DNA of 13,574 nt. Source: Anaerolineales bacterium. GTDB taxonomy: Bacteria; Chloroflexota; Anaerolineae; Anaerolineales; Anaerolineaceae. The DNA lies in contig JAGVAB010000021.1 in the NCBI GenBank assembly GCA_020060485.1, positions 1-13,574 on the forward strand, read 5' to 3'. Positions 1,825 through 13,574 of this stretch are shown one piece after another (the stretch's first letter is position 1; every line of letters starts with the position of its first letter). The position numbers and the translations under genes are program-made. Below the pieces are notes generated by a model, which was given only the letters and a program-made list of their open reading frames with translations, was not told the origin of the DNA and ran no database searches.

Positions 1825-2904
1825 TCACTTCACCTTCGCAACAGGCGCGGAACGAACTGCAAAGCGACCCTTTTGGCGAATGACCGCAAGCAAAAGGGTC
1901 TGAAAGAGCACGAATATACCAAGCAAAGCCGCGATTTCCCACGCATCGGCAGGCTTGAAGCTGCCATCGGAAAGCTTGAGGAGCGGGGAGAAGAAGTAGT
2001 AAGTCGGAAAAAGCTTCGGGAGCCAGCCCGGTGTCTTCGGGAACAGATTAAGTATGGCCGGGGCATACATCAGCAGCATCAAGCTTTGCGCAAGTGTTGT
2101 TACCGATTTCATATCTCTCGAGACAAACCCGATGATGCAACCGAAGCACGAAGCAGACATCGCGATAATTGCAAGCACGGCAAGCAGTGGTGCCGTATTG
2201 ATGGAAAGGCTCTGGTTCAGCGCCAGTATCATCAGCCCCATTAGAAAGCTGACAAGTCCCCCGAGTAGCATTTTCGCCCATAGAACTTCATAGGTATTAA
2301 CGGGTGCAGCAAGAAGGGCCTGCAAGGTCTTTCGCTGTTTGTCATCGATCAGGGATGTAGCGGGAATGAATATGCCACCCATCATCACGGCGATCAGCAC
2401 GACCAGCGGAAGCAGGCGATAGTACCAGGGCTTGATGTCCGCACCGCCAAGTGGCTCAGTGGTGATTTCTATGACCGGTTCCCTGTTTTGCAATGCCACC
2501 ACTCCCTTTTGCAGCAATATGAATGCCTGAACGCGTCGCTGCAGCGGGGATGAGCCACCGATGAAGATTTTCATTTCCGTCTCTTCGGAGGAGTTGACCA
2601 ATTCATCAAAGCCGGGCGACAGTATGATTGCCATATCCAGCTTTCCAGCTTCCAGCCTGCTAAGCATATCGTCCTGGGCTGGATAACGGCTGACTTGCGC
2701 GTTTTGCACAAAGGGCTGCACCAGCTTGGAGTTTTCGTTTTCGAGCAGACCGATTTTAGGTTTGCCTATGGACATCTGGCCGAAGACAAGGTATATGATC
2801 AACCATAGGCTCAACGGCGCTAAAAACAGCTGGAAGACAAGAAAGCTCTTTAAGCACATCTTCAGGTCGTGGAGAAACAATGAAAAAATATTTCTTATTG
2901 ACAT
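1825..2904 (-). CDS. ABC-2 type export permease, second subunit
   Basis: A 359-residue integral membrane protein of the ABC-2 type (ABC2_membrane_3-like). One N-terminal membrane segment lies at about residues 18-42. It is followed by an extracytoplasmic domain of about 120 residues, then five to six membrane segments from about residue 165 to the end. The cytoplasmic coupling sequence DDKQRKTLQALLAAPV between the second and third segments is typical: such permeases have an E/D-K-x-R-K/S-T pattern there. It is the last gene of a minus-strand operon and overlaps the upstream permease by 10 bases, implying translational coupling. With the paralogous permease it would form a heterodimeric export channel driven by the ATPase. 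The substrate is unknown; drug, lipid, peptide or Na+ export are all known for relatives. Confidence 0.88.
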   Translation of the reverse strand: MSIRNIFSLFLHDLKMCLKSFLVFQLFLAPLSLWLIIYLVFGQMSIGKPKIGLLENENSKLVQPFVQNAQVSRYPAQDDMLSRLEAGKLDMAIILSPGFDELVNSSEETEMKIFIGGSSPLQRRVQAFILLQKGVVALQNREPVIEITTEPLGGADIKPWYYRLLPLVVLIAVMMGGIFIPATSLIDDKQRKTLQALLAAPVNTYEVLWAKMLLGGLVSFLMGLMILALNQSLSINTAPLLAVLAIIAMSASCFGCIIGFVSRDMKSVTTLAQSLMLLMYAPAILNLFPKTPGWLPKLFPTYYFFSPLLKLSDGSFKPADAWEIAALLGIFVLFQTLLLAVIRQKGRFAVRSAPVAKVK

Positions 2905-3980
2905 TGTATTTTCCTGCGAATACAGAGCATCCCGGCGGTCAGGAAAGCGGCCGCTGTGATGCTCAGCGCAATAATCTGAGCTGTGACTTCTTGCCAGATC
3001 ACCTCGCGGTTAATTAAGAGGTTCATGCTGTCAGCGAGTATATAGGTCGGAATGACACGCATCCACGGAGACAGCATCCCCGGGAACAGTACGCCCAACA
3101 ACGGCACCATCATGATAATCATCGCAAAAACGCCCTTGGATACCAAGGACATCATATCGATGGAAAACGCGGCAAGCAGGGCCGAAACGCCCGTCGTCAG
3201 CACTGCACCGGTAAAAATGACCCACAGAACAGCTGGAACCTGTGCAACCAGAGCGCCAGTGGCGGCAAGGTATATCAGGATCTGCAGAAATATAATGGAT
3301 ATCCCCGCCAGGTTTTTTGCCAAAAGAAATTCTCCCATGCCGACCGGGGCCGCCAGAACAGCCTTGATGCTTCTGCTCTCTTTTTCCTCAACCAGTGAAA
3401 TCCCCAATGAAAACACCTCCATGACAAGCAGCACGCTGACCATCAGCGGTATCATCTGGTTTTTGAAAGGCACGGTGTTCTCCAGTATATTCTCGCCGAC
3501 AAAGATCTCCTTTGTTGCGATGTTCAGCGTAGAATCCTGCATACGGTAGGTCATCTCGCTGAACACAATCTCTATAATGAACGATATGGAACGAACATAC
3601 TCGTCAGCCAAACCGGGCACGGTATACAGAGTTACATCTGCCGTTTTGCCATCTTCAATATCCTGCAATATTTTCTCGGTGATGATAATCCCCGCAGTAT
3701 GCCCACCGCTTTTTACCGAATTCATGAGCGCTTGGGCTGACGGCATGCGCTCATACCGGACCGCTTCGACGCCTTCGTCCCATGCGCTGAAAAATGCGGA
3801 CGCGTCCACCTCTGAATAGACTGCGATCGATGGCTCTTCCTGGGATAACTCCGCTGGCAGCACATAGTGCAGGGCGATTAACGCGGCAAGTGGCACCAAA
3901 CTGAAGATCAGGAATATTTTATTGCGCAACAAAAGCCTGTATTCCTTACCTAAAAGAATGAGGATTGTTCTTGCAATCAT
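2895..3980 (-). CDS. ABC-2 type export permease, first subunit
   Basis: A 361-residue permease with the same plan as its neighbour: an N-terminal membrane segment at about residues 22-43, an extracytoplasmic region to about residue 170, then five to six membrane helices. The motif VEEKESRSIKAVLAAPV marks the cytoplasmic loop contacting the ATPase and matches ABC-2 exporters. The ATG at 3980 overlaps the ATPase stop codon as ATGA, and the stop overlaps the next permease start, so the three genes are tightly coupled. The gene order TetR, ATPase, permease, permease recalls the Escherichia coli CecR-YbhFSR export system, but no HlyD-type membrane fusion gene is present, which fits a cell without a classical outer membrane. 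Substrate unknown. Confidence 0.88.
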   Translation of the reverse strand: MIARTILILLGKEYRLLLRNKIFLIFSLVPLAALIALHYVLPAELSQEEPSIAVYSEVDASAFFSAWDEGVEAVRYERMPSAQALMNSVKSGGHTAGIIITEKILQDIEDGKTADVTLYTVPGLADEYVRSISFIIEIVFSEMTYRMQDSTLNIATKEIFVGENILENTVPFKNQMIPLMVSVLLVMEVFSLGISLVEEKESRSIKAVLAAPVGMGEFLLAKNLAGISIIFLQILIYLAATGALVAQVPAVLWVIFTGAVLTTGVSALLAAFSIDMMSLVSKGVFAMIIMMVPLLGVLFPGMLSPWMRVIPTYILADSMNLLINREVIWQEVTAQIIALSITAAAFLTAGMLCIRRKIQCQ

Positions 3981-4840
3981 CCCGCAAGCCCTCTTCCGGT
4001 AATCTGTATGAATATATCTTCCAGCGTGGCTTCCTTGCTATGTACGGTAAGCACCTTGCGGTTCTCGAACAGGTCACGCAACTTCTCCCCCGAGGATGGC
4101 TGATCCATGGGAAGCTGGATCGTTTCCTTGCTGCCGTCCCCGTTTAACACATCCACAAAGAGCAATTGCCTGCCGTACTGGAGCTTCAAGTTATAAGGCG
4201 TGTCCAGTGCAACGATTTTTCCGCCAGTTATAAAAGCGACCCTGTCGGAAAGCTTATCCGCATCGGCCATATCATGCGTAGTCAGCAGTATTGCCGCGCC
4301 GCGCCGCTTTTCTTCGAGTATGATTTTGCGGAGCGCCTCGGCGGATACCGGGTCAAGTCCGCTGGCCGGCTCATCCAGAAATAGAACGTCGGGCGTGTTG
4401 ATCAAAGCGCGCGCCAACATTAGGCGCTGCTTCAGGCCTTTGGAGTATTTGGCGACTTTTTCGTTCATTCGGTCACCCAGGCCGACCTTTTCCAGAATAT
4501 GTTCCGGCTTAAATCCGTTGATCCGGAACAGCTTCGCAAAAAACACCAGGTTCTCTTTTGCAGTCAGCTGCTCATACAGGTTGGGCTGTTCGAAACACAC
4601 TCCGATGCGCCGCTTCACATCCTTCGGAAATTTACGCACATCAATCCCCAGTATTCTTGCGTTGCCGGATTTGGCAGTTATCTGCCCGGTCAACATTTGG
4701 ATCGTAGTGGATTTTCCCGCCCCATTCGGACCAAGAAAGCCGAGAATCTCTCCCCTTGATACGTTAAAACTAATGTCGTTGACAGCCAGGATATCGCCGT
4801 AATGGTAGACTAAATTGACAGCTTCAATGTATTTTTCCAA
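3977..4840 (-). CDS. ABC exporter ATP-binding subunit
   Basis: A 287-residue cytoplasmic ATPase that powers the two following permeases. All nucleotide-binding motifs are intact: Walker A GPNGAGKST (37-45), Q-loop glutamine at 85 in CFEQPN, signature YSKGLKQ (132-138), Walker B DVLFLDEP (151-158), D-loop SGLDP and H-loop histidine 189 in TTHD. The YSKGxKQR signature in place of LSGGQ is standard for CcmA/NatA/DrrA-type exporters, so it is not a defect. The C-terminal 65 residues form the usual accessory domain of this subfamily. Translation starts at a TTG (4840), supported by AAGGAG eight bases upstream. The gene begins 66 bases after the tetR stop codon. Confidence 0.92.
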   Translation of the reverse strand: MEKYIEAVNLVYHYGDILAVNDISFNVSRGEILGFLGPNGAGKSTTIQMLTGQITAKSGNARILGIDVRKFPKDVKRRIGVCFEQPNLYEQLTAKENLVFFAKLFRINGFKPEHILEKVGLGDRMNEKVAKYSKGLKQRLMLARALINTPDVLFLDEPASGLDPVSAEALRKIILEEKRRGAAILLTTHDMADADKLSDRVAFITGGKIVALDTPYNLKLQYGRQLLFVDVLNGDGSKETIQLPMDQPSSGEKLRDLFENRKVLTVHSKEATLEDIFIQITGRGLAG

Positions 4841-4906
4841 GCTTATTCTCCTTCCGTGTCACACGCTAATGATTGAATATTGGCTAAAGCAAGTATTGGG
4901 ATGCCG

Positions 4907-5452
4907 CTATTTTGCCAGAAGGCCGTGAAAATACAGTGTCCTCAACTGCCTGTGCAGCTCATTAAAATCGGGAACCTCGCCTCTCCAGCTGCCGTCAACC
5001 GCGATTTCATTCAGTTTTTCGGCAGCCAGCCAGATAAGCCCGGGGGACAGATCTTCGCGAACTTCGCCCTTCTCCTGTGCCGCCAGTATGTTCTTCATGA
5101 AGCGTTTCTTCATCTCTCTCTTGGTCTCTTCAAAAGAAATGATGTCCTCGATGAATTCGCTTTGCATCTGAGAGAAAAATTCAACCCGCCACTTTGTCAT
5201 CAAGTCTACTTTTTCGGAAAATGGCATATCCAACCCTACGATTTCATCGTACTTTGCAAAGCCTGTATTCATCAGATCATCGCGGATGTGCCGCACCACG
5301 GCCTCCTTGTTCTCAAAGTATTTGTAGAAGGTCACCTTGCTGACATTGGCCTTCCGGCAGATTTCCTCAACCGTGACCCGTTTCACACCATGCTTGAAGA
5401 ACAGGGATTTGGCCGTTTCAACCAGCTGTAGAAATTTTTCGTTTTTGGTCAT
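4907..5452 (-). CDS. TetR family transcriptional regulator
   Basis: A 181-residue one-component repressor. The N-terminal TetR helix-turn-helix is clear at residues 25-46 (VTVEEICRKANVSKVTFYKYF), followed by the FENKEAV continuation typical of the family. The C-terminal 130 residues are helical and divergent, as expected for a ligand-binding and dimerisation domain. It is the first gene of the export operon, so it most likely represses its own promoter and the ATPase and permease genes until a transported compound binds. An AT-rich promoter with a 12-bp palindrome lies directly upstream (5514-5542). The inducer cannot be deduced. Confidence 0.92.
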   Translation of the reverse strand: MTKNEKFLQLVETAKSLFFKHGVKRVTVEEICRKANVSKVTFYKYFENKEAVVRHIRDDLMNTGFAKYDEIVGLDMPFSEKVDLMTKWRVEFFSQMQSEFIEDIISFEETKREMKKRFMKNILAAQEKGEVREDLSPGLIWLAAEKLNEIAVDGSWRGEVPDFNELHRQLRTLYFHGLLAK

Positions 5453-5513: not shown

Positions 5514-5542
5514 ATAATATATTATCGTTTTTTTATTGTCAA
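5514..5542 (-). promoter_or_regulatory. Promoter of the tetR-export operon with palindrome
   Basis: On the minus strand a consensus -35 TTGACA at complement(5537-5542) is followed after 17 bases by TATTAT at complement(5514-5519), about 60 bases before the tetR start codon. The 12-base perfect palindrome ATAATATATTAT (5514-5525) covers the -10 box and is a candidate TetR operator, although palindromes made only of A and T can arise by chance. The -35 box overlaps the 5' edge of the tnpB remnant frame. Confidence 0.65.
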
Positions 5543-5727
5543 TAGATAATCAATATGATTTGTTGATAAGAAACGAGCGCGGGGAAATCGTGGAAAAAGA
5601 CTTGTCAGTGCGGACGCATGAAAGTCCGTGCTGTGGATTAGTTCTTGACCGGGATTTGAACGCTGCCCGAAATATTCTGCAAAAAGCGTTCTACGCGCCT
5701 GGATCGGGCGTTCATGACCTAACGTGA
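5536..5727 (+). pseudogene. tnpB: 3' remnant of an IS200/IS605-type TnpB gene
   Basis: Only the last ~60 codons of a TnpB-like RNA-guided nuclease survive. The hallmark is PCCGLVLDRDLNAARNIL, the zinc-knuckle end plus the RuvC-III DRDxNAA motif with its catalytic aspartate. Upstream, RNERGEIVEKDLSVRTHESPCCG aligns with the family pattern CxxCG...CPxCG. Three of the four zinc-binding cysteines have become R, R and S, leaving one. The RuvC-I and RuvC-II parts and any tnpA are absent. The nominal TTG start is simply where the frame opens, inside the tetR promoter. It cannot be active as a nuclease; it marks a past mobile element at the right end of the export module. Confidence 0.8.
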
Positions 5728-5965: not shown

Positions 5966-6541
5966 GTGAAAACATCCAAACCCGCCAGCAATCTCTCTCC
6001 CGAATACCCCCTGCTGGGTCTTTTGGCCCGGCAGCCGGCGCATGGCTATGAACTGCATCAGCGCCTGGTGGAGGAGTTTGGCCACACCTGGCATATCAGT
6101 CTCAGCCAGACCTACAACATTCTCAAGCGCCTGGAAAGCCAGGGCGTCATCTCCGGTGAAGACCAGAATCAGGAAAACCGCCCCGCCCGGCGGTATTTTC
6201 AACTTACCACGCTGGGACGCGAGCGGTTCGAGGCCTGGCTTGATTCCACCGTTGGATGCAGTACGCGCGCCATCCGTATCGAATTCCTCACCCGCCTGGC
6301 CTTTGCCGAAAGTCTGCGTCCGCAGCTTGTACCGCAGCTCCTGGCGCGGCAGATCACCGAAGTGGAAAACGGCCTGGCACAGCTGGAAGATGCCCTGCAA
6401 AAACTTCCCGCCGCACAAACCTACAACCGCCTGGCCTTGCATCTGCGCGTGCGCCAGCTTGCGCCCATGCTGGACTGGCTGATAGCATGCCAGACCGCCT
6501 GGCAGCAAGAGGCAAGTTTCCAATCCATTTCGTCACCCTGA
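5966..6541 (+). CDS. PadR family transcriptional regulator
   Basis: A 191-residue repressor. Residues 15-90 form the PadR winged helix: PLLGLLARQPAHGYELHQRL, then LSQTYNILKRLESQGVI (recognition helix and start of the wing) and RRYFQLTTLGRERFEAWL (wing strand). The C-terminal ~100 residues are helical, matching the longer PadR subgroup with a dimerising C-terminal domain. The GTG at 5966 is chosen because GGAGG lies seven bases upstream; no other start fits the domain. It is the first gene of the importer operon and most likely acts on the palindrome at 5935-5953. The ligand is not known; by context it may sense the imported substrate or a related stress. Confidence 0.92.
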   Translation: MKTSKPASNLSPEYPLLGLLARQPAHGYELHQRLVEEFGHTWHISLSQTYNILKRLESQGVISGEDQNQENRPARRYFQLTTLGRERFEAWLDSTVGCSTRAIRIEFLTRLAFAESLRPQLVPQLLARQITEVENGLAQLEDALQKLPAAQTYNRLALHLRVRQLAPMLDWLIACQTAWQQEASFQSISSP

Positions 6542-6579
6542 GACCAGGGTTCACAATCTTTCCATTCAGGAGACAGAGC

Positions 6580-7764
6580 ATGTACAGACCCTTTACCCGT
6601 ATCTTTACCCTTGTTATAGCCAGCGCGATGCTGCTTGCAGCCTGCACGCCCCAGGCGGCGCCCGCCGTCCCGGCCGAGCCGGAAATCCAAACCTCGCCGG
6701 CTGCGCTGGCAACTGTGGATGATCGCCCTGCCACACCTAAACCTGAAACGGCCGCTCCGGAACAGACCGGCTTCACCGTGACCGATGCCCTGGGCCGCGA
6801 GGTCTATTTCGAGACCGCCCCGCAGCGGATTGTCCTGACCGGCAGAGCCTGGTTCCAACTGGTGGACGCCATCTATGCCTTCCCCGCGTCCGATGAGCGG
6901 TTGATCGCCATTGGCGACCGCTTCCAGGGTTCGATGAACATCTTCTCCCTGCTGGACAGCAATTTTGCCGCCAAAACCCTGCTGGACCGGGACGCCAGCG
7001 CCGAGCAGATCGCCGCCCTGAAACCGGATCTGGTGATGATGAAAAGCTACCTGGCCGAAAGCCAGGGCAAACCGCTGGAAGTGCTGGGCATTCCGGTGAT
7101 CTACCTGGACCTGGAAACACCCGAACAGTACCAGCGCGACTTGCAAACCATTGGCTTGCTCTTCCAGGATGATGCCCGCACCAGCGAAGTGCTGGCCTAC
7201 TTCCAGGGCATGGCCGGACAGGTCACCAGCAAAACTGCCAGTCTGTCCGATGCCGACAAGCCTTCCGTTCTGCTGATCTACTATGATGACCGCGATGGCG
7301 AGATGGCCGTGCAGGTTCCGCCCCTCTCCTGGTTGCAAACCTCGCTGGTGGAAATGGCCGGCGGCCGCCCGGTGTGGCGTGATATTGAACTTGGCAATGG
7401 TTGGACCAGAGTCAACTTTGAGCAGATCGCCGTCTGGAACCCGGACAAGATCTTCGTGGTGGCCTACAACAAACCAGTCGCTGAAGCGGTGGGTATTCTG
7501 CAAGACGACCCGCAGTGGCAGGCGCTCGATGCAGTGAAAAACGGTGAAATGTACGCCTTCCCCGGCGCCCACTTCAGTTGGGATCAGCCGGACACCCACT
7601 GGGTGCTGGGCCTGAACTGGCTGGCCACCAGGATCCAGCCTGCTCTGTTCGCCGACCTGAATATGGAAGAAGAAACCCGTCAATTCTATGCTACACTATA
7701 CGGGCTTGATGAGGCAACCTATCTGCAGCACATTCAGCCGCGCATCACAGGCGATTATCCTTAG
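6580..7764 (+). CDS. Substrate-binding lipoprotein of a FecBCD-type importer
   Basis: A 394-residue lipoprotein of the periplasmic-binding-protein class III fold (Peripla_BP_2). Its signal peptide ends in the lipobox LLAAC with Cys22, followed by an A/P/T-rich tether to about residue 65. The mature domain begins with FTVTDALGREVYFETAPQRIV, the standard opening of iron-complex, corrinoid and some molybdate binders. The segment EQIAALKPDLVMM is the conserved linker-side motif. ATG 6580 is preceded by AGGAGA and is the correct start; the open frame extends upstream to 6256 only by overlapping padR. It delivers substrate to the downstream permease. The exact ligand cannot be told: ferric chelate, haem, cobalamin or oxyanion are all possible. 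Confidence 0.9.
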   Translation: MYRPFTRIFTLVIASAMLLAACTPQAAPAVPAEPEIQTSPAALATVDDRPATPKPETAAPEQTGFTVTDALGREVYFETAPQRIVLTGRAWFQLVDAIYAFPASDERLIAIGDRFQGSMNIFSLLDSNFAAKTLLDRDASAEQIAALKPDLVMMKSYLAESQGKPLEVLGIPVIYLDLETPEQYQRDLQTIGLLFQDDARTSEVLAYFQGMAGQVTSKTASLSDADKPSVLLIYYDDRDGEMAVQVPPLSWLQTSLVEMAGGRPVWRDIELGNGWTRVNFEQIAVWNPDKIFVVAYNKPVAEAVGILQDDPQWQALDAVKNGEMYAFPGAHFSWDQPDTHWVLGLNWLATRIQPALFADLNMEEETRQFYATLYGLDEATYLQHIQPRITGDYP

Positions 7765-7782
7765 ACCGGCGGAGAGCTGGTA

Positions 7783-8820
7783 TTGACTCACACCTCGCGC
7801 AACACTGCTCACCAAGAACACTCCGGCCTGCGGGCACATCCATTGCGCTTGCTGGCGCTCCTGTTTGGCCTGATGGCCGGGGTGTTCCTTTTTTCCCTGT
7901 TCCTCGGCCGCTACCCGCGCCTGGGGCTGATGTCGTTCCAGACCCTGTCCGAGGATGAACTGGCCCGGCGGCTGATGCTCAATTTACGTCTGCCGCGCAT
8001 CATCACTGCCCTGCTGCTGGGCATGTCGCTCTCGGCGGCGGGCAATGTTTTCCAAATGATCTTTGCCAATCCCCTGGTCGAACCGGGATTTCTGGGCGTT
8101 TCTCAGGGAGCGGCCTTTGGGGCGGCCTTCAGCATCATTGCCCTGGGTGGTTCGGCCGCCGCCACACAAAGCCTGGCCCTGGTGTTTGCCTTTGTCGGCC
8201 TGGGCAGCTCGTACCTGCTGGCGCGGCGCATCCGCTTTGGCGGCTGGGTGCTGCGCCTGGTGCTTTCCGGCATTGTCATCTCGGCCCTGTTTTCTTCCGG
8301 TCTGGGCATCCTCAAATACATGGCCGACCCGCTCAGCCAGCTGCCAGAGATCACCTTCTGGCTGCTGGGCAGCCTGTCCGGCATCACCTGGCCGGATGTG
8401 CGCAGCATCCTCATCCCTGTTCTGGCGGGTCTGCTCATCATTTATCGCATGCGCTGGCGGCTGAACCTGCTCTCGCTGGACGATACCATCTCCTTTTCAC
8501 TGGGCGTGACCCCCGGCCGCGAGCGCAGCCTGCTGCTAGTCTCGGCGGTGGCGGCCACGGCGGCGGTGGTCTCGGTAGCCGGCATGGTGGGCTGGATCGG
8601 TTTGATCGTGCCGCACCTCGCCCGGCGCCTGTTTGGGGCCAATACCCGTTACACGGTGCCGGGTTCGATGCTGATCGGCGGGAGCTTTGCCATGTTGAGC
8701 GATATGATCGCCCGCACCCTGCTGACCGGCGAAATCCCCCTGGGCATCCTCACTTCCCTGATCGGGGCATTGTTGTTCATTGCCTTGATGATCTCCCAAT
8801 CGATGCGGGTGAGAGAATGA
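7783..8820 (+). CDS. FecCD family ABC importer permease
   Basis: A 345-residue permease of the FecCD/BtuC family with about ten membrane segments. Typical motifs are LNLRLPRIITALLLGMSLSAAG near residues 65-88, NPLVEPGFLGVSQGAAFGA after it, FWLLGSLSGITW in the middle, and GWIGLIVPHLARRLFGAN near residue 280, the cytoplasmic loop that docks on the ATPase. It starts at TTG 7783, supported by GGAG about nine bases upstream and placed correctly before the first membrane helix. It begins 18 bases after the binding-protein gene, and its TGA overlaps the ATPase ATG as ATGA. It works as a homodimer in related class II importers. Confidence 0.92.
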   Translation: MTHTSRNTAHQEHSGLRAHPLRLLALLFGLMAGVFLFSLFLGRYPRLGLMSFQTLSEDELARRLMLNLRLPRIITALLLGMSLSAAGNVFQMIFANPLVEPGFLGVSQGAAFGAAFSIIALGGSAAATQSLALVFAFVGLGSSYLLARRIRFGGWVLRLVLSGIVISALFSSGLGILKYMADPLSQLPEITFWLLGSLSGITWPDVRSILIPVLAGLLIIYRMRWRLNLLSLDDTISFSLGVTPGRERSLLLVSAVAATAAVVSVAGMVGWIGLIVPHLARRLFGANTRYTVPGSMLIGGSFAMLSDMIARTLLTGEIPLGILTSLIGALLFIALMISQSMRVRE

Positions 8821-9632
8821 ACAACGTGCTGCTGTCCTTCGAAAAGATCGCCTTTGCCTATGACGCCAACGGCCAGACCGTGTTGAATGAGCTTTCGCTC
8901 GACGTGGAACAGAACACGGTAACCGCCATCCTCGGCCCCAACGGGGTGGGCAAGACCACCCTGCTCTATCTGGCCCTGGGCTGGCGGGTGCCGCAGCGCG
9001 GCCGGGTTCTGCTGAACGGCAAACCGCTGGCCGCCTACTCGCGCCGTGAAATGGGGCAGTGGATTGGCCTGGTGCCGCAAAACGAACATGTGTCCTTTGA
9101 TTATTCCCTGCTGGAGTACGTCCTTCTGGGGCGCGCCCCTTACCTCAAACCGCTCTCCATGCCCGGCAGGCAGGACCGTGAACTGGCAGCCGAAGCCCTG
9201 GAAACAGTCGGCCTGGGCAGCATGATCCACCGCCGGGTCACCGCCCTGAGCGGCGGGGAAAGACAGTTGGTGCTGGTAGCGCGCGCCCTGGCCCAGCAGC
9301 CGCGCCTGTTGTTGATGGACGAAGCCACATCCCACCTCGACCTGGGCAACAAACTGCGCCTGATGGACGTGGTACAAAGCCTGACCCGCAAAGGCATCAC
9401 CGTGGTGCTGACCACCCACGAACCGGAAGTGGCCGCTTCCATTGCCAGCCATCTGGTGCTGATGCGCGCCGGCAAGGTGGAGCATGCCGGGCCGATCGAG
9501 GAGGAGTTCACCGGCGAGCGCCTGACCGTCACCTATGGCGTACCGGTTGAAGTGAGCGAGGTCTCCGGTCGTCTGATCGCCCTGTGGGGACACGAGAACC
9601 TGCACCGCAAAGGCGGCCGTGATGAAGCCTGA
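8817..9632 (+). CDS. FecE/BtuD-type importer ATPase
   Basis: A 271-residue ATP-binding subunit with all motifs present: Walker A GPNGVGKTT (40-48), Q-loop glutamine 88 in LVPQNE, signature LSGGE (144-148), Walker B RLLLMDEA (163-170) and H-loop His201 in TTHEPE. The QNEHVSFDYSLLEYVLLGR stretch after the Q-loop is typical of the iron-chelate/cobalamin/molybdate class II importers. Together with the permease it forms the transporter core. The start overlaps the permease stop by four bases, and the end overlaps the following NTPase gene, so translation is coupled throughout. Confidence 0.93.
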   Translation: MNNVLLSFEKIAFAYDANGQTVLNELSLDVEQNTVTAILGPNGVGKTTLLYLALGWRVPQRGRVLLNGKPLAAYSRREMGQWIGLVPQNEHVSFDYSLLEYVLLGRAPYLKPLSMPGRQDRELAAEALETVGLGSMIHRRVTALSGGERQLVLVARALAQQPRLLLMDEATSHLDLGNKLRLMDVVQSLTRKGITVVLTTHEPEVAASIASHLVLMRAGKVEHAGPIEEEFTGERLTVTYGVPVEVSEVSGRLIALWGHENLHRKGGRDEA

Positions 9633-10206
9633 AGCCAGTCTGGTGATCGTCACCGGCTGGCGCGGCAGCGGCAAGACCAGCCTTTGCCGCCAGATGATCG
9701 CCGCCGCCGAAAGCCTGGGGTGGCAGGCGGCGGGGGTGCTTTCGCCAGCCAAATTCAAGGACGGACAGAAAAATGCCATCCTCATCGAGGACATCCGCAG
9801 CGCCGAGCAGCGCCAGATGGCCTGGTGGCCTTTGCCCGGTCAGCGGCCTGAAGCGGTATGCACCGATGAAAGCCCCTATGACCCCGACTGGAAACCGCAC
9901 TGGATCTTTGACCAGGAAGCCCTGGCCTGGGGCGAGCAGCTTTTGGCCGCCATTACCGTCTGCGACCTGCTGGTGATTGATGAGTTGGGGCCATTTGAAC
10001 TGGCCAAGGGTGAGGGCTGGGTCTCTGGCCTGCACCTGCTGGACGGGAGGCAGTACCGCCTGGCGCTGGTTGTCATCCGCCCGGAGTTGATCGAGCAAGC
10101 CCGCCAGCGCTGGCCGCAGGCTGAGGTGATAGAGTTGAAAAAGGTGCAAGACGTCGCCGCCGCAGTGGAGCGGTTACGACAGGAGCATCTGCGGGGAAGT
10201 TCTTAA
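9622..10206 (+). CDS. THEP1-like P-loop nucleoside-triphosphatase
   Basis: A 194-residue P-loop protein of the NTPase_1 (THEP1) type. Walker A is GWRGSGKTS (12-20) and Walker B is DLLVIDELGPFEL (115-127); the ELGPFE continuation is diagnostic of this family. THEP1 proteins hydrolyse nucleoside triphosphates slowly in vitro, and their cellular role is unsettled. The frame also allows a GTG at 9619, three bases earlier, but the ATG is the more likely start. It overlaps the ATPase gene by 11 bases and is the last gene of the operon. It has no membrane segment. Its place suggests a role tied to the imported substrate, perhaps in cofactor handling; that is inference from context. Confidence 0.82.
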   Translation: MKPEASLVIVTGWRGSGKTSLCRQMIAAAESLGWQAAGVLSPAKFKDGQKNAILIEDIRSAEQRQMAWWPLPGQRPEAVCTDESPYDPDWKPHWIFDQEALAWGEQLLAAITVCDLLVIDELGPFELAKGEGWVSGLHLLDGRQYRLALVVIRPELIEQARQRWPQAEVIELKKVQDVAAAVERLRQEHLRGSS

Positions 10207-10208
10207 GT

Positions 10209-10227
10209 CCAGGCAGCGCCTGGTTTT
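10209..10227 (+). terminator. Intrinsic terminator of the importer operon
   Basis: Three bases after the NTPase stop codon, CCAGGC and GCCTGG form a perfect 6-bp stem with an AGC loop, followed by TTTT. The region then adds a weaker hairpin (GGAGA 10233-10237 with TCTCC 10249-10253) and a perfect GGGTGA/TCACCC hairpin (10255-10270, loop TCGT), so it may be a layered stop. Confidence 0.75.
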
Positions 10228-10321
10228 CATCAGGAGAAAGTTTTTTTCTCTCCAGGGTGATCGTTCACCCAAAAGAAAGTTCATCTTCACTTCTGAAAAA
10301 TCCAAAATGGAGAAATAGATA

Positions 10322-10624
10322 ATGACTATTATCATTCCTGGTGAGGTCATTTTAGCCCCAATTCTTTTTTTAATCGCAATTATCGAACTATGGTACAGTA
10401 TTCAAATACTCTTTTTTGATAGAGAAAAGTATTTTGTTACTTTTCAAATTTTTTTTCTCCTTTATAAATTGTTGCCAATGAAAAAAGAACGCAAACAAAA
10501 AAGGTTAAATCACGCGATATCTGTTTATAAACAACGGATGAAAATATATGCCCGGCGTTGGTTAATTGGCGGCGTGTTTTCTGTAATCTATTTTGGCTGG
10601 GAAATACTCAAGATGGTTAATTAA
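10322..10624 (+). CDS. Small AT-rich membrane protein of unknown function
   Basis: This 100-residue protein belongs to no family I recognise. Residues 7-33 form one hydrophobic segment (VILAPILFLIAIIELWYSIQILFF), a second shorter one is near 38-52, and a third near 80-95. Between them is a strongly basic stretch (KKERKQKR), probably cytoplasmic. Composition shifts sharply here from the GC-rich operon to an AT-rich gene with different codon use, which suggests acquisition. GGAG precedes the ATG by about ten bases. It lies beside RHS remnants, so an immunity-protein role is possible but unproven. Confidence 0.6.
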   Translation: MTIIIPGEVILAPILFLIAIIELWYSIQILFFDREKYFVTFQIFFLLYKLLPMKKERKQKRLNHAISVYKQRMKIYARRWLIGGVFSVIYFGWEILKMVN

Positions 10625-10896
10625 TGCAATAACCATAAAGAAATTTGAAAAGACAATACGGTAAATCTGATATAGATGGGCAAACAGAGAAAGATTATTG
10701 CCGATGCAGTGGTTTGAATTTACCCATTTTGTATTTCAAGCACCTTAACAACAAAATTGCATTAAAGAAAAGAAGAGGTGTTGAAAATGAAGAGGTTGTT
10801 AGATGATGAATAATCGAATTTCTATTGCGCATAAATTATGACAGAGCCTGTTCTTCAACGGATATTTCTTTATTGGGAAAGGTGAAAAGTGTTGTT
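10625..10896. other. AT-rich gap between two small membrane protein genes
   Basis: No gene is supported. A possible promoter, TTGAAA (10645-10650) with TGATAT (10668-10673) at 17 bases, points toward the next gene. One in-frame stretch from 10671 to 10748 encodes a 25-residue peptide ending WFEFTHFVFQAP, which may be a scrap of a lost gene. Several short frames in 10790-10840 are too small to judge. Confidence 0.4.
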
Positions 10897-11259
10897 ATGA
10901 AGGCAAAAAAACAATTTGAATTATTAAACCACGAAACGATTCAAATGCCCTTTATATTTGCTCAAGGCTTTCCTATTGCAATAGCTTTTGTTATTTTAAT
11001 GATATTTCAAATAGTAGATGAGTCATTTCAAATTGGTGCCAATAATCCGTATCTCTTTGATTTGCTAATTGGAATCTCTGTTCTTATCGCAAGTTTAAGC
11101 TTTCTTGTGACAATCATTGAAAAAGAGATAGTTATTGCCTTATTGGCCATTCGTGGAAGTATTGCAGTATTTATTGGCCTGCTAGGACTAGCGGCTTGTT
11201 GGCGTTTAGGAATAGGTATGATAATTCAGTATTTTAATAATATTGCGACATTGAAATGA
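10897..11259 (+). CDS. Orphan four-helix membrane protein
   Basis: A 120-residue protein from the ATG at 10897. Four hydrophobic segments are visible: residues about 20-42 (FIFAQGFPIAIAFVILMIF), 53-72, 77-95 and 97-115. No family is recognised. The frame stays open upstream to a TTG at 10825, and a GTG at 10882 is also possible. The ATG is preferred because the upstream residues are polar and not conserved in any way I can see, but its RBS (AAAGG, about 13 bases away) is loose, so the start is uncertain. Codon use is AT-rich like its neighbours. Its position between RHS remnants suggests an immunity protein; this is inference. Confidence 0.6.
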   Translation: MKAKKQFELLNHETIQMPFIFAQGFPIAIAFVILMIFQIVDESFQIGANNPYLFDLLIGISVLIASLSFLVTIIEKEIVIALLAIRGSIAVFIGLLGLAACWRLGIGMIIQYFNNIATLK

Positions 11260-11489
11260 AAAGGCTTTACGCTGGATAGTAAATAAAATCGATCAATGAT
11301 CTGGATGCGATCATCGTCACGGACAGTGCAGCCACGCCGATCCCCACCGGGACGCCCTCGCCTACTACGAAGGTTGCGGCTCATACGTTGTGCATTTACA
11401 TCAATCGCTTGTTGGGTAAGCCAAATTTCCTTCAGATCAAAGCTCTAGCTTTTCCTAACTAGCATAAGGCCCTATTAAGTCTCCAATGA
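11260..11489. other. GC-rich fragment between AT-rich genes
   Basis: From 11283 to 11456 one frame reads INDLDAIIVTDSAATPIPTG and then a T/P-rich linker-like segment before a stop; upstream it is closed at 11280-11282. The GC-rich island is about 110 bases long and ends near 11400. T/P-rich linkers occur in surface proteins, so this could be a scrap of an exported or RHS-type protein. No start or RBS is seen. Confidence 0.35.
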
Positions 11490-11524
11490 ACAGTGGACGG
11501 CAGCACCAGCACGGTCAACAAGTT
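11481..11524 (+). repeat. 44-bp direct repeat, copy 1 (RHS core scrap)
   Basis: Identical to 12636-12679 at 42 of 44 bases, including 28 bases in a row at 11488-11515. The repeat encodes part of an RHS core and explains why two GC-rich islands sit in AT-rich surroundings. Confidence 0.9.
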
Positions 11525-11543
11525 CTATACGATGGGCAGTGTC
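11490..11543 (+). pseudogene. RHS/YD-repeat core fragment 1
   Basis: The frame at 11490-11543 reads TVDGSTSTVNKFYTMGSV, matching the RHS core stretch where a VDGxxSTVxKYYxxG motif precedes the RIAMR-like strand. It is closed upstream by a TGA at 11487 and loses all similarity after 11543. It is thus about 18 codons of a core gene that normally runs beyond 1000 codons. It is a decayed copy or recombination scar, not an expressed gene. Confidence 0.6.
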
Positions 11544-11571
11544 ATTATAGAGAGCTGTATGATACGCCATT

Positions 11572-11805
11572 TTGGAATTCAAAAAGAACCCTCGCAGGTA
11601 CTCTAAACGGACCTTGTGGAGTTTAATAAATTATACAGCCCAGGGCATGTGGTCTGCTGCATCGGGTGAAGGCGTTCTGGGAGCAATTGCGGCAGTAACA
11701 TATTGGAAGAATAAAGAATACACCCATCCTCCAAGCGGTGGGGTTATAGAATGGACTATACGGGGAGTGCAGGCATATCCTTATCACACTTTCCCAGAGT
11801 ATTAG
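11572..11805 (+). CDS. Possible small protein or RHS tip fragment
   Basis: A 77-codon frame with a TTG start and no good RBS. The protein is rich in aromatic and small residues (ending VQAYPYHTFPEY) and has a weakly hydrophobic middle (GEGVLGAIAAVTYW). It follows RHS fragment 1 directly but in a different reading frame. One reading is that it is the end of an RHS-linked toxin tip whose join to the core was lost by a frameshift. The alternatives are a genuine short gene starting at ATG 11647 or chance. It ends 18 bases before the next gene, whose RBS follows its stop, so coupling to a cognate immunity gene would fit. Confidence 0.35.
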   Translation: MEFKKNPRRYSKRTLWSLINYTAQGMWSAASGEGVLGAIAAVTYWKNKEYTHPPSGGVIEWTIRGVQAYPYHTFPEY

Positions 11806-11823
11806 GGATAAAAGGAAAAAAGC

Positions 11824-12543
11824 ATGTTCAAGAAATATTCAATACAAACATTTCTAAAACTATTAGTTGCTACAACAGTTGTTGAAATGGTGGGATATTT
11901 CCTCGATGGTTATTCCCTTGAGCATTGGGCTTTCATTGACATTCTCATATTAATGCTCCCAATTCGCATCCTTCTAATTGTTTTAATTTTTGTACAGATC
12001 ATTCGATCCATTGTTTCCCAAAGACATGAATGGAAATATGTAGTCTTAGGTTTATTGTTGATATGTATTAGCATGGTGCCTAAGCAACATTATTCAACTT
12101 TTGGGGAAATCACTCGTATGCATAATTCTAATCCAACGAGCGTATTGGTTGAATCAAGAAATTTGATGGATATTTATGAGCCCATGACTCATTTTGGAAC
12201 TGTTCACAGAACGCCTCTAAATAATCCTCGTTCTCTAGATGAGATTCCACAAATGATTAAGACAGTCCATAAAGGAGAAGTGTTGGTTTTAGAAAATGCT
12301 GTCTTACTAGAAAGTTGGGGAGGGAGCTTTGAACCTTCTTTCCAAGGTTTTGTTGTTTTTCGGGAAGGTTTTGATCCCTGGATAAATGAGAAACAAATCA
12401 TGTTAGAAGATTTTTGGTATTCGAGTTGGAGAATTAGAATAATTGATGGTTTGTATTGGTACAAAGTTAATGGATACAATAATCCTTTTTTAGAGCAAAT
12501 TCAACTAGAGCGGAGTCATAAAATTGAGAATTCAAGTGAATAA
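11824..12543 (+). CDS. Orphan membrane protein with extracytoplasmic domain
   Basis: A 239-residue protein. Three hydrophobic segments lie at about 10-28, 37-61 and 72-88, the third preceded by QRHEWKY. The remaining 150 residues are soluble, without cysteines, and rich in W/F/Y (WGGSFEPSFQGFVVFREGFDPW, then WYSSWRIRIIDGLYWYKV), suggesting a beta-rich domain outside the membrane. No family is recognised. ATG 11824 is backed by AAAGGA about nine bases upstream. It is AT-rich, sits between the two RHS core scraps, and is the best-formed gene of the zone. An immunity protein that meets an incoming toxin at the membrane is a possible role, unproven. Confidence 0.72.
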   Translation: MFKKYSIQTFLKLLVATTVVEMVGYFLDGYSLEHWAFIDILILMLPIRILLIVLIFVQIIRSIVSQRHEWKYVVLGLLLICISMVPKQHYSTFGEITRMHNSNPTSVLVESRNLMDIYEPMTHFGTVHRTPLNNPRSLDEIPQMIKTVHKGEVLVLENAVLLESWGGSFEPSFQGFVVFREGFDPWINEKQIMLEDFWYSSWRIRIIDGLYWYKVNGYNNPFLEQIQLERSHKIENSSE

Positions 12544-12571
12544 GAAGTATTAAATTATGAAAGGAACTTAG

Positions 12572-12686
12572 GACGGTGATGGCAATAAGGTCAAAGGCCA
12601 TGGTGAAAGGCGTAGCAACCTGCTGCCCCGGACGGCTCCAAAGAACAGTGGACGGCAGCACCAGCACGGTGAACAAGTTATACTGA
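12572..12686 (+). pseudogene. RHS/YD-repeat core fragment 2
   Basis: Bases 12572-12598 encode DGDGNKVKG, the classic YD-repeat opening. After a one-base slip, 12600-12686 encodes GVATCCPGRLQRTVDGSTST and then VNKLY before a stop. This follows the RHS order: YDGDGNRV, then GVTTYYPGR, then VDGSTSTVNKYY. Relative to fragment 1 it lacks two bases after AAGTT, which produces the TGA. With one frameshift, one deletion and no flanking core, it is a decayed scrap. Confidence 0.72.
12636..12679 (+). repeat. 44-bp direct repeat, copy 2 (RHS core scrap)
   Basis: Second copy of the repeat at 11481-11524 (two mismatches), in the same orientation. The two copies flank 1.1 kb holding the 77-codon frame and the 239-residue membrane protein, so recombination between them could delete or exchange that cassette. 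Confidence 0.9.
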
Positions 12687-12733
12687 GAAATCGATACTTT
12701 AAATTTGGGGGTTAATTCAAGAAAGGAAAACTC

Positions 12734-12790
12734 ATGCCAAAAAGAACTCATACACAACAGCAAGAAACCCTCACAATCATACGGGGATAA
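12734..12790 (+). CDS. Short upstream ORF before the lipoprotein
   Basis: An 18-codon frame encodes MPKRTHTQQQETLTIIRG, with AAAGGAAA about six bases before its ATG, and ends one base before the lipoprotein ATG. It could be a leader peptide coupling translation, or a scrap: the KRTHT...IIRG pattern faintly resembles the start of IS3-type OrfA proteins. I would not assign a function. Confidence 0.3.
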   Translation: MPKRTHTQQQETLTIIRG

Positions 12791-12791
12791 C

Positions 12792-13493
12792 ATGCAAAAT
12801 CACAATTTTCCTATCAAATATTTTTCGGCTCTATTGATTTTATGCCTGGTTACTTCCTGCACGCCTCAAACTCCAGAACAGGAAACACCTTTTCCCGTTT
12901 TAACTGCCTCAGTTACCTCTGCTCCTCCATCATTAATTCTGGAAACCGAAAGCATAAAACCAGTAGAATTGCCCACCCCAACAGTAACCGCGACAAGCAC
13001 CCAGGAAGTTTTGCCAATTCTGGAAATTATTACAGATGAGAATGAAAGCTATATCTTCATCGAGGAAAGTTCCGGCGCTATATACTTCATAGATATGGCT
13101 GCCGGTCAAACCAAAAATTTATTGCCCGAAGAACGCCGTCCCCAACTGTTGTCCATCCGCAAGAATAGCGGTGAAGTACTGGTGAAACTGCAAAACAAAA
13201 GCATCGTCGGGTTGGATTTGGATGGGAATGTTTTAACAGAATATCTGCCGCCCGACTGGCATCAGGGATTGGACCCCATTTTCTCAGAAACGCTATCCCC
13301 AGACGGCAGCTACCTTGCCTATAAAGTGGGTACAGGATACGCCAACCATATTTCTTATGAAAATCAGCATATCGAGATACTGAATATCGCTCAACAAACA
13401 ACTACCCAATTAACGGAACATGGTGGTCACTGTGGGTTAGCCTGGTCACCAGATGGCGCGATGCTGGCTTTCACAAATAGGGGCTTATGCTAG
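12792..13493 (+). CDS. Lipoprotein with beta-propeller repeat, 3' truncated
   Basis: The 233-residue product has a signal peptide ending in LVTSC with the lipidated Cys23, a T/P-rich tether to about residue 75, and then strands typical of TolB/PD40-like propellers. Two repeats are visible: SETLSPDGSYLAYKVGTG and LAWSPDGAMLAFTN. A propeller needs more blades than this, and the frame stops right after the second repeat with an unrelated tail (RGLC). The gene therefore appears cut at about 13480. ATG 12792 follows GGGG at a short spacing; the open frame reaches up to 12705 but that part lacks signal character. The intact gene would encode a surface-anchored protein of unknown target. Confidence 0.75.
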   Translation: MQNHNFPIKYFSALLILCLVTSCTPQTPEQETPFPVLTASVTSAPPSLILETESIKPVELPTPTVTATSTQEVLPILEIITDENESYIFIEESSGAIYFIDMAAGQTKNLLPEERRPQLLSIRKNSGEVLVKLQNKSIVGLDLDGNVLTEYLPPDWHQGLDPIFSETLSPDGSYLAYKVGTGYANHISYENQHIEILNIAQQTTTQLTEHGGHCGLAWSPDGAMLAFTNRGLC

Positions 13494-13574
13494 TTGAAAA
13501 TGATTGACAAAAAATCCTCTGATTGGTAAGAATGGGTCACCACAACACAATCTTGCCAAACGGAGGACACTCTG
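13478..13574 (+). mobile_element. Probable left end of an insertion sequence
   Basis: After the lipoprotein loses its repeat pattern, about 90 non-coding bases follow. They contain an imperfect inverted repeat (13516-13531 with 13551-13566, 13 of 16 pairs) and end in CGGAGGACACTCTG, a strong RBS (CGGAGGA 13561-13567) placed so that a start codon would fall just beyond the window. This is what the left end of an IS upstream of its transposase gene looks like. The family cannot be named, and the exact boundary and target duplication lie partly outside the window. Confidence 0.5.

Follow-up and report, generated by a model that had tools for sequence, protein, structure and literature searches.

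Two RHS-core-like scraps beside conserved small membrane proteins in an Anaerolineales bacterium: possible remains of an RHS locus

Does the genome of an Anaerolineales bacterium (Chloroflexota; GenBank assembly GCA_020060485.1, contig JAGVAB010000021.1) preserve the remains of an RHS locus, and are the small membrane proteins encoded there the immunity side of former toxins? The window, that is the whole stretch of DNA that was analysed, has 13,574 nucleotides, and the question arises in its right-hand part, where an earlier interpretation of the sequence (the original prediction) had seen an eroded RHS orphan array. Two scraps rich in guanine and cytosine (GC), 11481-11543 (63 nucleotides, GC content 0.54) and 12572-12686 (115 nucleotides, 0.56), lie amid three AT-rich genes of 100, 120 and 239 codons with GC contents of 0.32-0.34, which agrees with the interleaving that had been described; a block of 62% GC lies to the left of the scraps. 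Our favoured reading, to which we assign a probability of about 0.4, is a worn-down RHS locus with two core pseudogene scraps, in which the neighbouring membrane proteins are the leftover immunity side of lost toxin tips.

The two scraps share a direct repeat of 47 nucleotides (11481-11527 and 12636-12682, both on the + strand) that the original prediction did not name: 44 of the 47 bases are equal (94%), and the pair is the longest direct repeat listed for 10150-13574 by a mechanical repeat search that was blind to RHS. Both copies encode VDGSTSTVNK in the same frame. Copy 2 also encodes PGR in the frame of VDGSTSTVNK and DGDGNKVKG in a different frame; a TGA stands in frame two codons ahead of VDGSTSTVNK in copy 1 and two codons behind it in copy 2. 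Given these stops and the position of DGDGNKVKG in another frame, both repeat copies are therefore broken. Scrap 1, followed to position 11560 on the + strand, has its in-frame TGA at 11487-11489 and its frame closes at 11604-11606; scrap 2 (12572-12686, +) contains a frame change and ends with a closing TGA at 12684-12686, and both scraps are broken copies. The sequence features named by the original prediction are mostly real, and its RHS words VDGSTSTVNK, PGR and DGDGNKV are all present, but curated profiles do not recognise them.

For a comparison with RHS genes, we made our own core profile from 17 RHS genes from plasmids (17 of 60 records), mostly of environmental bacteria, consisting of 16 pieces plus Herpetosiphon. 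The scan tolerated frameshifts at a cost of 5 bits per frame change and listed the top 8 places per strand; the choice of the profile part was steered by the motif. Positions 12572-12620 end at sub-profile position 27 and positions 11505-11555 at position 62: by length, the former correspond to the DADGLRVAKTKNGVTT stretch and the latter to the SGTVKASYVYGNDLISQ stretch. The two stretches are in core order, do not overlap and lie 109-159 profile positions ahead of the DPxG boundary. On the + strand, the scraps rank third and fifth among the places listed. When tightly cut, scrap 1 scores 14.3 bits and the 5' part of scrap 2 scores 13.6 bits, each matched by one in 400 shuffles (9/400 for the whole of scrap 2). 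Real RHS pieces that were left out of the profile (17/17 scored) reach 14.5-26.6 bits for the first stretch (median 21.2) and 9.3-28.9 bits for the second (median 19.0); scrap 1 is within the range of real pieces, and scrap 2 is so only after its 5-bit frame-change cost is added back. The comparison with core profiles that the original prediction had proposed has an ordered fit with a frame change in its favour, but the plain search described below gave no signal. Words like those in the scraps are found in RHS genes, and this helped our judgement that an RHS origin of the scraps is quite likely; such an origin is indicated, whereas the repeat, its breaks and the two conserved protein families described next are directly visible.

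The smallest of the three AT-rich genes (10322-10624, +; GC 0.32, GGAG upstream of its ATG) encodes a membrane protein of 100 residues with one membrane segment by hydropathy; no family was found for it in Pfam, NCBIfam, PADLOC or PHROGs and no plasmid match by tblastn. Relatives of the other two proteins were sought among 5.8 billion sequences and kept at E-values of up to 10. The second gene lies in a 144-codon frame (10825-11259, TTG start) with an inner ATG at 10897. This frame has five relatives (from 55 candidates, 59-94% identity), and since two of the five begin at the inner ATG, the gene (10897-11259, +) probably has 120 codons; its product has three membrane segments by hydropathy. 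The third gene (11824-12543, +) encodes a protein of 239 residues, a candidate immunity protein, whose first 100 residues hold membrane segments and are followed by about 140 more; it has nine relatives (from 312 candidates, 35-95% identity), and 22 of the 32 invariant columns of the family lie from residue 120 onward. All three predicted frames, of 100, 120 (within the 144-codon frame) and 239 codons, are present, and judged by their sequences the latter two products are conserved narrow families without a known family. Searching these proteins in databases, as had been proposed, yielded relatives but no known family, and the original prediction of unrecognised membrane protein families held: nothing beyond noise was found in Pfam, NCBIfam, PADLOC and PHROGs, and no known immunity family. 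As noise we regard the matches of the 239-residue protein to ABC2_membrane_2 (E 0.034) and of the 144-codon frame to a PADLOC 2TM effector model (E 0.031), as well as PHROGs matches at E 0.13 or worse.

Structure predictions of both families are poor, with mean predicted local distance difference test (pLDDT) values of 53.4 and 52.7. In the model of the 239-residue protein, helices at 7-30, 35-65, 70-83 and 88-101 are more confident than the remainder, while hydropathy gives a single membrane segment at 42-60; from the basic residues at 61-71, which separate two of these helices, the portion following the third helix would be expected outside the cytoplasm. A fold search with this model returned no match at E up to 0.001 (best 1.7), and sequence searches of the PDB returned none for the 120-residue family and two for the 239-residue family at E 0.21 and 1.4. 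Pattern scans with the 239-residue family found 61 stretches in genome contigs and 25 in viral contigs, and those with the 120-residue family found 145 in viral contigs; there were no relatives among them. For each family, one relative has a longest contig listed at 1,294,885 bases, which we take to be one and the same contig.

If the favoured reading of a worn-down RHS locus is correct, two copies of one RHS core stretch, from ahead of the DPxG boundary, would survive as two pseudogene remnants. Stops and a frame change have disrupted them, and at scrap 1 an insertion-sequence end has probably done so as well. The AT-rich membrane proteins, which are intact, would most likely have served as immunity proteins to the toxin tips once encoded here; the tips would have been lost by decay and the immunity side alone kept. 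The 239-residue protein would be anchored in the membrane, expose a domain on the side away from the cytoplasm and block a toxin that works at this membrane or across it. The conservation of the 120- and 239-residue families beside scraps that are broken supports this reading.

The kind of locus is already known. RHS toxins are listed for Chloroflexi in PMC3482391; literature searches found no paper combining orphan Rhs modules, immunity and Chloroflexi, none combining Rhs, YD repeats and Chloroflexi, and none combining RHS repeats and Anaerolineae. The account of orphan modules in PMC3150448 describes cassettes at rhs loci that are similar to cdi orphan modules and bounded by PxxxxDPxGL; in the cdi orphan modules treated there, most toxin pieces are without start signals, the immunity genes are expressible, and disruption by insertion sequences is reported. 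Orphan rhs-CT/rhsI and cdiA-CT/cdiI modules consist, in the same account, of core-gene fragments followed by small genes, as at this locus (PMC3150448). In those modules, however, PxxxxDPxGL or VENN demarcates the variable part, and toxin pieces were functional where tested (PMC3150448), whereas here there is neither DPxG nor a tip, and the core pieces are shorter and come from before the PxxxxDPxGL boundary. The pore-forming Tse5, with its immunity protein Tsi5, illustrates that the membrane can be the target of an RHS toxin (PMC10684867); a membrane immunity protein would be the fitting counterpart to a toxin of this kind. The membrane genes at our locus may be linked to RHS in this way and are candidate immunity genes. 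Tsi5 is presumably itself a membrane protein.

Several results weigh against the favoured reading, and they concern both the toxin side and the RHS origin. The 77-codon frame between scrap 1 and the 239-codon gene, which the original prediction had named among the interleaved elements, has no support as a gene. The open stretch that contains it (11563-11805, +; 80 codons plus stop) is matched by 69 of 1000 shuffles of 11481-11823, within chance, and the GC content of the frame by codon position is flat (0.46/0.49/0.44, vs 0.44/0.30/0.29 in the 239-codon gene). The 80-codon stretch has no plasmid match by tblastn, a SoxE match of the 77-residue product (E 0.045) is noise, and the frame should not count as a toxin tip. 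The toxin tip of an orphan module was found behind neither scrap: the length of the open stretch following scrap 1 lies within chance and the next frame behind scrap 2 is a lipoprotein gene, and a decayed tip is possible. DPxG is absent from the six frames of 10207-13574, and with it the PxxxxDPxGL boundary of an orphan rhs module. No homologue of the membrane proteins is known beside an RHS gene, the neighbourhoods of the homologues being unread.

These results leave room for an explanation that we hold to be well possible, although we would not bet on it: the scraps are RHS remnants, and the membrane proteins are unrelated cargo of an AT-rich island, perhaps borne by an insertion sequence, with some other membrane function. 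The AT-rich genes adjoin the block of 62% GC, no toxin tip is shown, no immunity family was matched, and probable insertion-sequence ends are present. The sequence at 11457-11476 (- strand), four bases ahead of scrap 1, repeats 13476-13495 in inverted form, with 95% complementarity over 20 nucleotides; both read AATAGGG[GC]CTTATGCTAGTT and lie 2 kb apart in inverted orientation. Both are probably termini of the same type of insertion sequence, the left one being a scar and the right one opening an element that leaves the window. No transposase was identified, and we infer the insertion-sequence identity of both ends, which is indicated by these repeats. The frame of a putative lipoprotein with a PD40-like end (12792-13490, +; PD40 21.3 bits, cut-off 20.9) ends early at 13476-13495, and its gene was probably cut off by the insertion sequence. 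Against unrelated cargo stand the arrangement of the membrane genes, which share the strand of the scraps and lie beside or between them as immunity genes do, and the relatives of two of the membrane proteins that appear to share one contig.

A GC-richer open stretch of 58 codons (11286-11459, +) ends at the probable insertion-sequence scar. It may be the tail of a transposase; no family match and no plasmid match were found for this frame.

With respect to the RHS origin, the three scrap frames matched no family in Pfam and NCBIfam (E up to 10) or PHROGs (E up to 1), searches of low power with broken pieces of 38-47 residues. Plain hmmsearch with our own core profile in six frames gave scrap 1 -0.2 bits and a best score in the window of 0.6 (100 shuffles of the region: median of the best score 0.8, maximum 8.5). 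A coding pattern for GSTSTVNK(F/Y)Y had no match in 84,980 genomes, and a protein search with scrap 2 returned ten candidates, none at E up to 10. In the frameshift-tolerant scan, both scraps score below the medians of real RHS pieces, and the 47-nucleotide repeat alone is without RHS signal (117 of 400 shuffles reach its score). In fairer shuffles of each repeat copy flanked by 75 bases left and right, on both strands, 8/300 and 10/300 reach the scores (about 3% each); with the full profile and the same flanks, 13/150 and 8/150 do so. Moreover, 5 of 67 window tiles reach 13.6 bits (the scraps not being excluded from the tiles), and five other places among those listed outscore scrap 1 (19.9, 16.8, 16.5, 16.4 and 15.1 bits); these five are taken as chance. 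All this would fit a repeat that is not RHS at all, being a piece of another repeated gene or of a mobile element, with RHS words that arose by chance resemblance. We think this unlikely, as two separate, non-overlapping stretches align with the core in the correct order with scores near those of real pieces. An eroded RHS region is still the most probable origin of the scraps, given the ordered core fit and the breaks in both copies, but the support from the fairer shuffles is modest and neither DPxG nor a tip was found. That the repeats are retained as short regions of homology for swapping tips and immunity genes into a distant full-length rhs gene is highly improbable: PMC3150448 offers, as one model for orphan modules, recombination via conserved stretches ahead of the tip, and the copies are 94% alike, but 47 nucleotides are short, the stretch lies far (109-159 profile positions) before the boundary, DPxG is absent and no demonstrable tip follows.

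Other searches with the region returned chance matches or none. The GSTSTVNK(F/Y)Y pattern found no stretch in viral contigs, where two looser patterns found 9 and 14 stretches, none of them RHS by eye on the translations. A DNA search with 10150-13574 listed 13 plasmid and two phage records (E 0.09 to 0.9), dismissed as chance. In plasmids, tblastn found no match for scrap 1 and four records for scrap 2 (E 2 to 9), likewise dismissed; one of the four is a Streptomyces plasmid that carries an RHS gene elsewhere. Scrap 2 had no match in a sequence search of the PDB, and searches with Rfam (gathering scores) and for tRNAs found none.

The remainder of the window carries genes of other kinds. A TetR regulator, an ABC ATPase and two ABC-2 permeases (1825-5452, - strand) form an ordinary efflux-type operon. 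At 5536-5727 (+) lies a fragment of a TnpB-like gene with a Cas12f1-like TNB domain (27.6 bits, cut-off 26.3), which we take to be a likely remnant of an IS605-type element. Genes for a periplasmic binding protein, a FecCD permease, an ABC ATPase and, last in the row, an NTPase_1 protein (6256-10206, +) make up a metal or cofactor uptake operon.

It is rather doubtful, though conceivable, that the 120- and 239-residue proteins, and perhaps the 100-residue protein, are new membrane immunity families that have survived the loss of the RHS toxins, protection being kept without the weapon. If this is not true, the locus is a pseudogene scrap next to uncharacterised membrane proteins; if it is, the locus would contribute membrane immunity families not yet described and an example of immunity genes outlasting the toxin gene that brought them.

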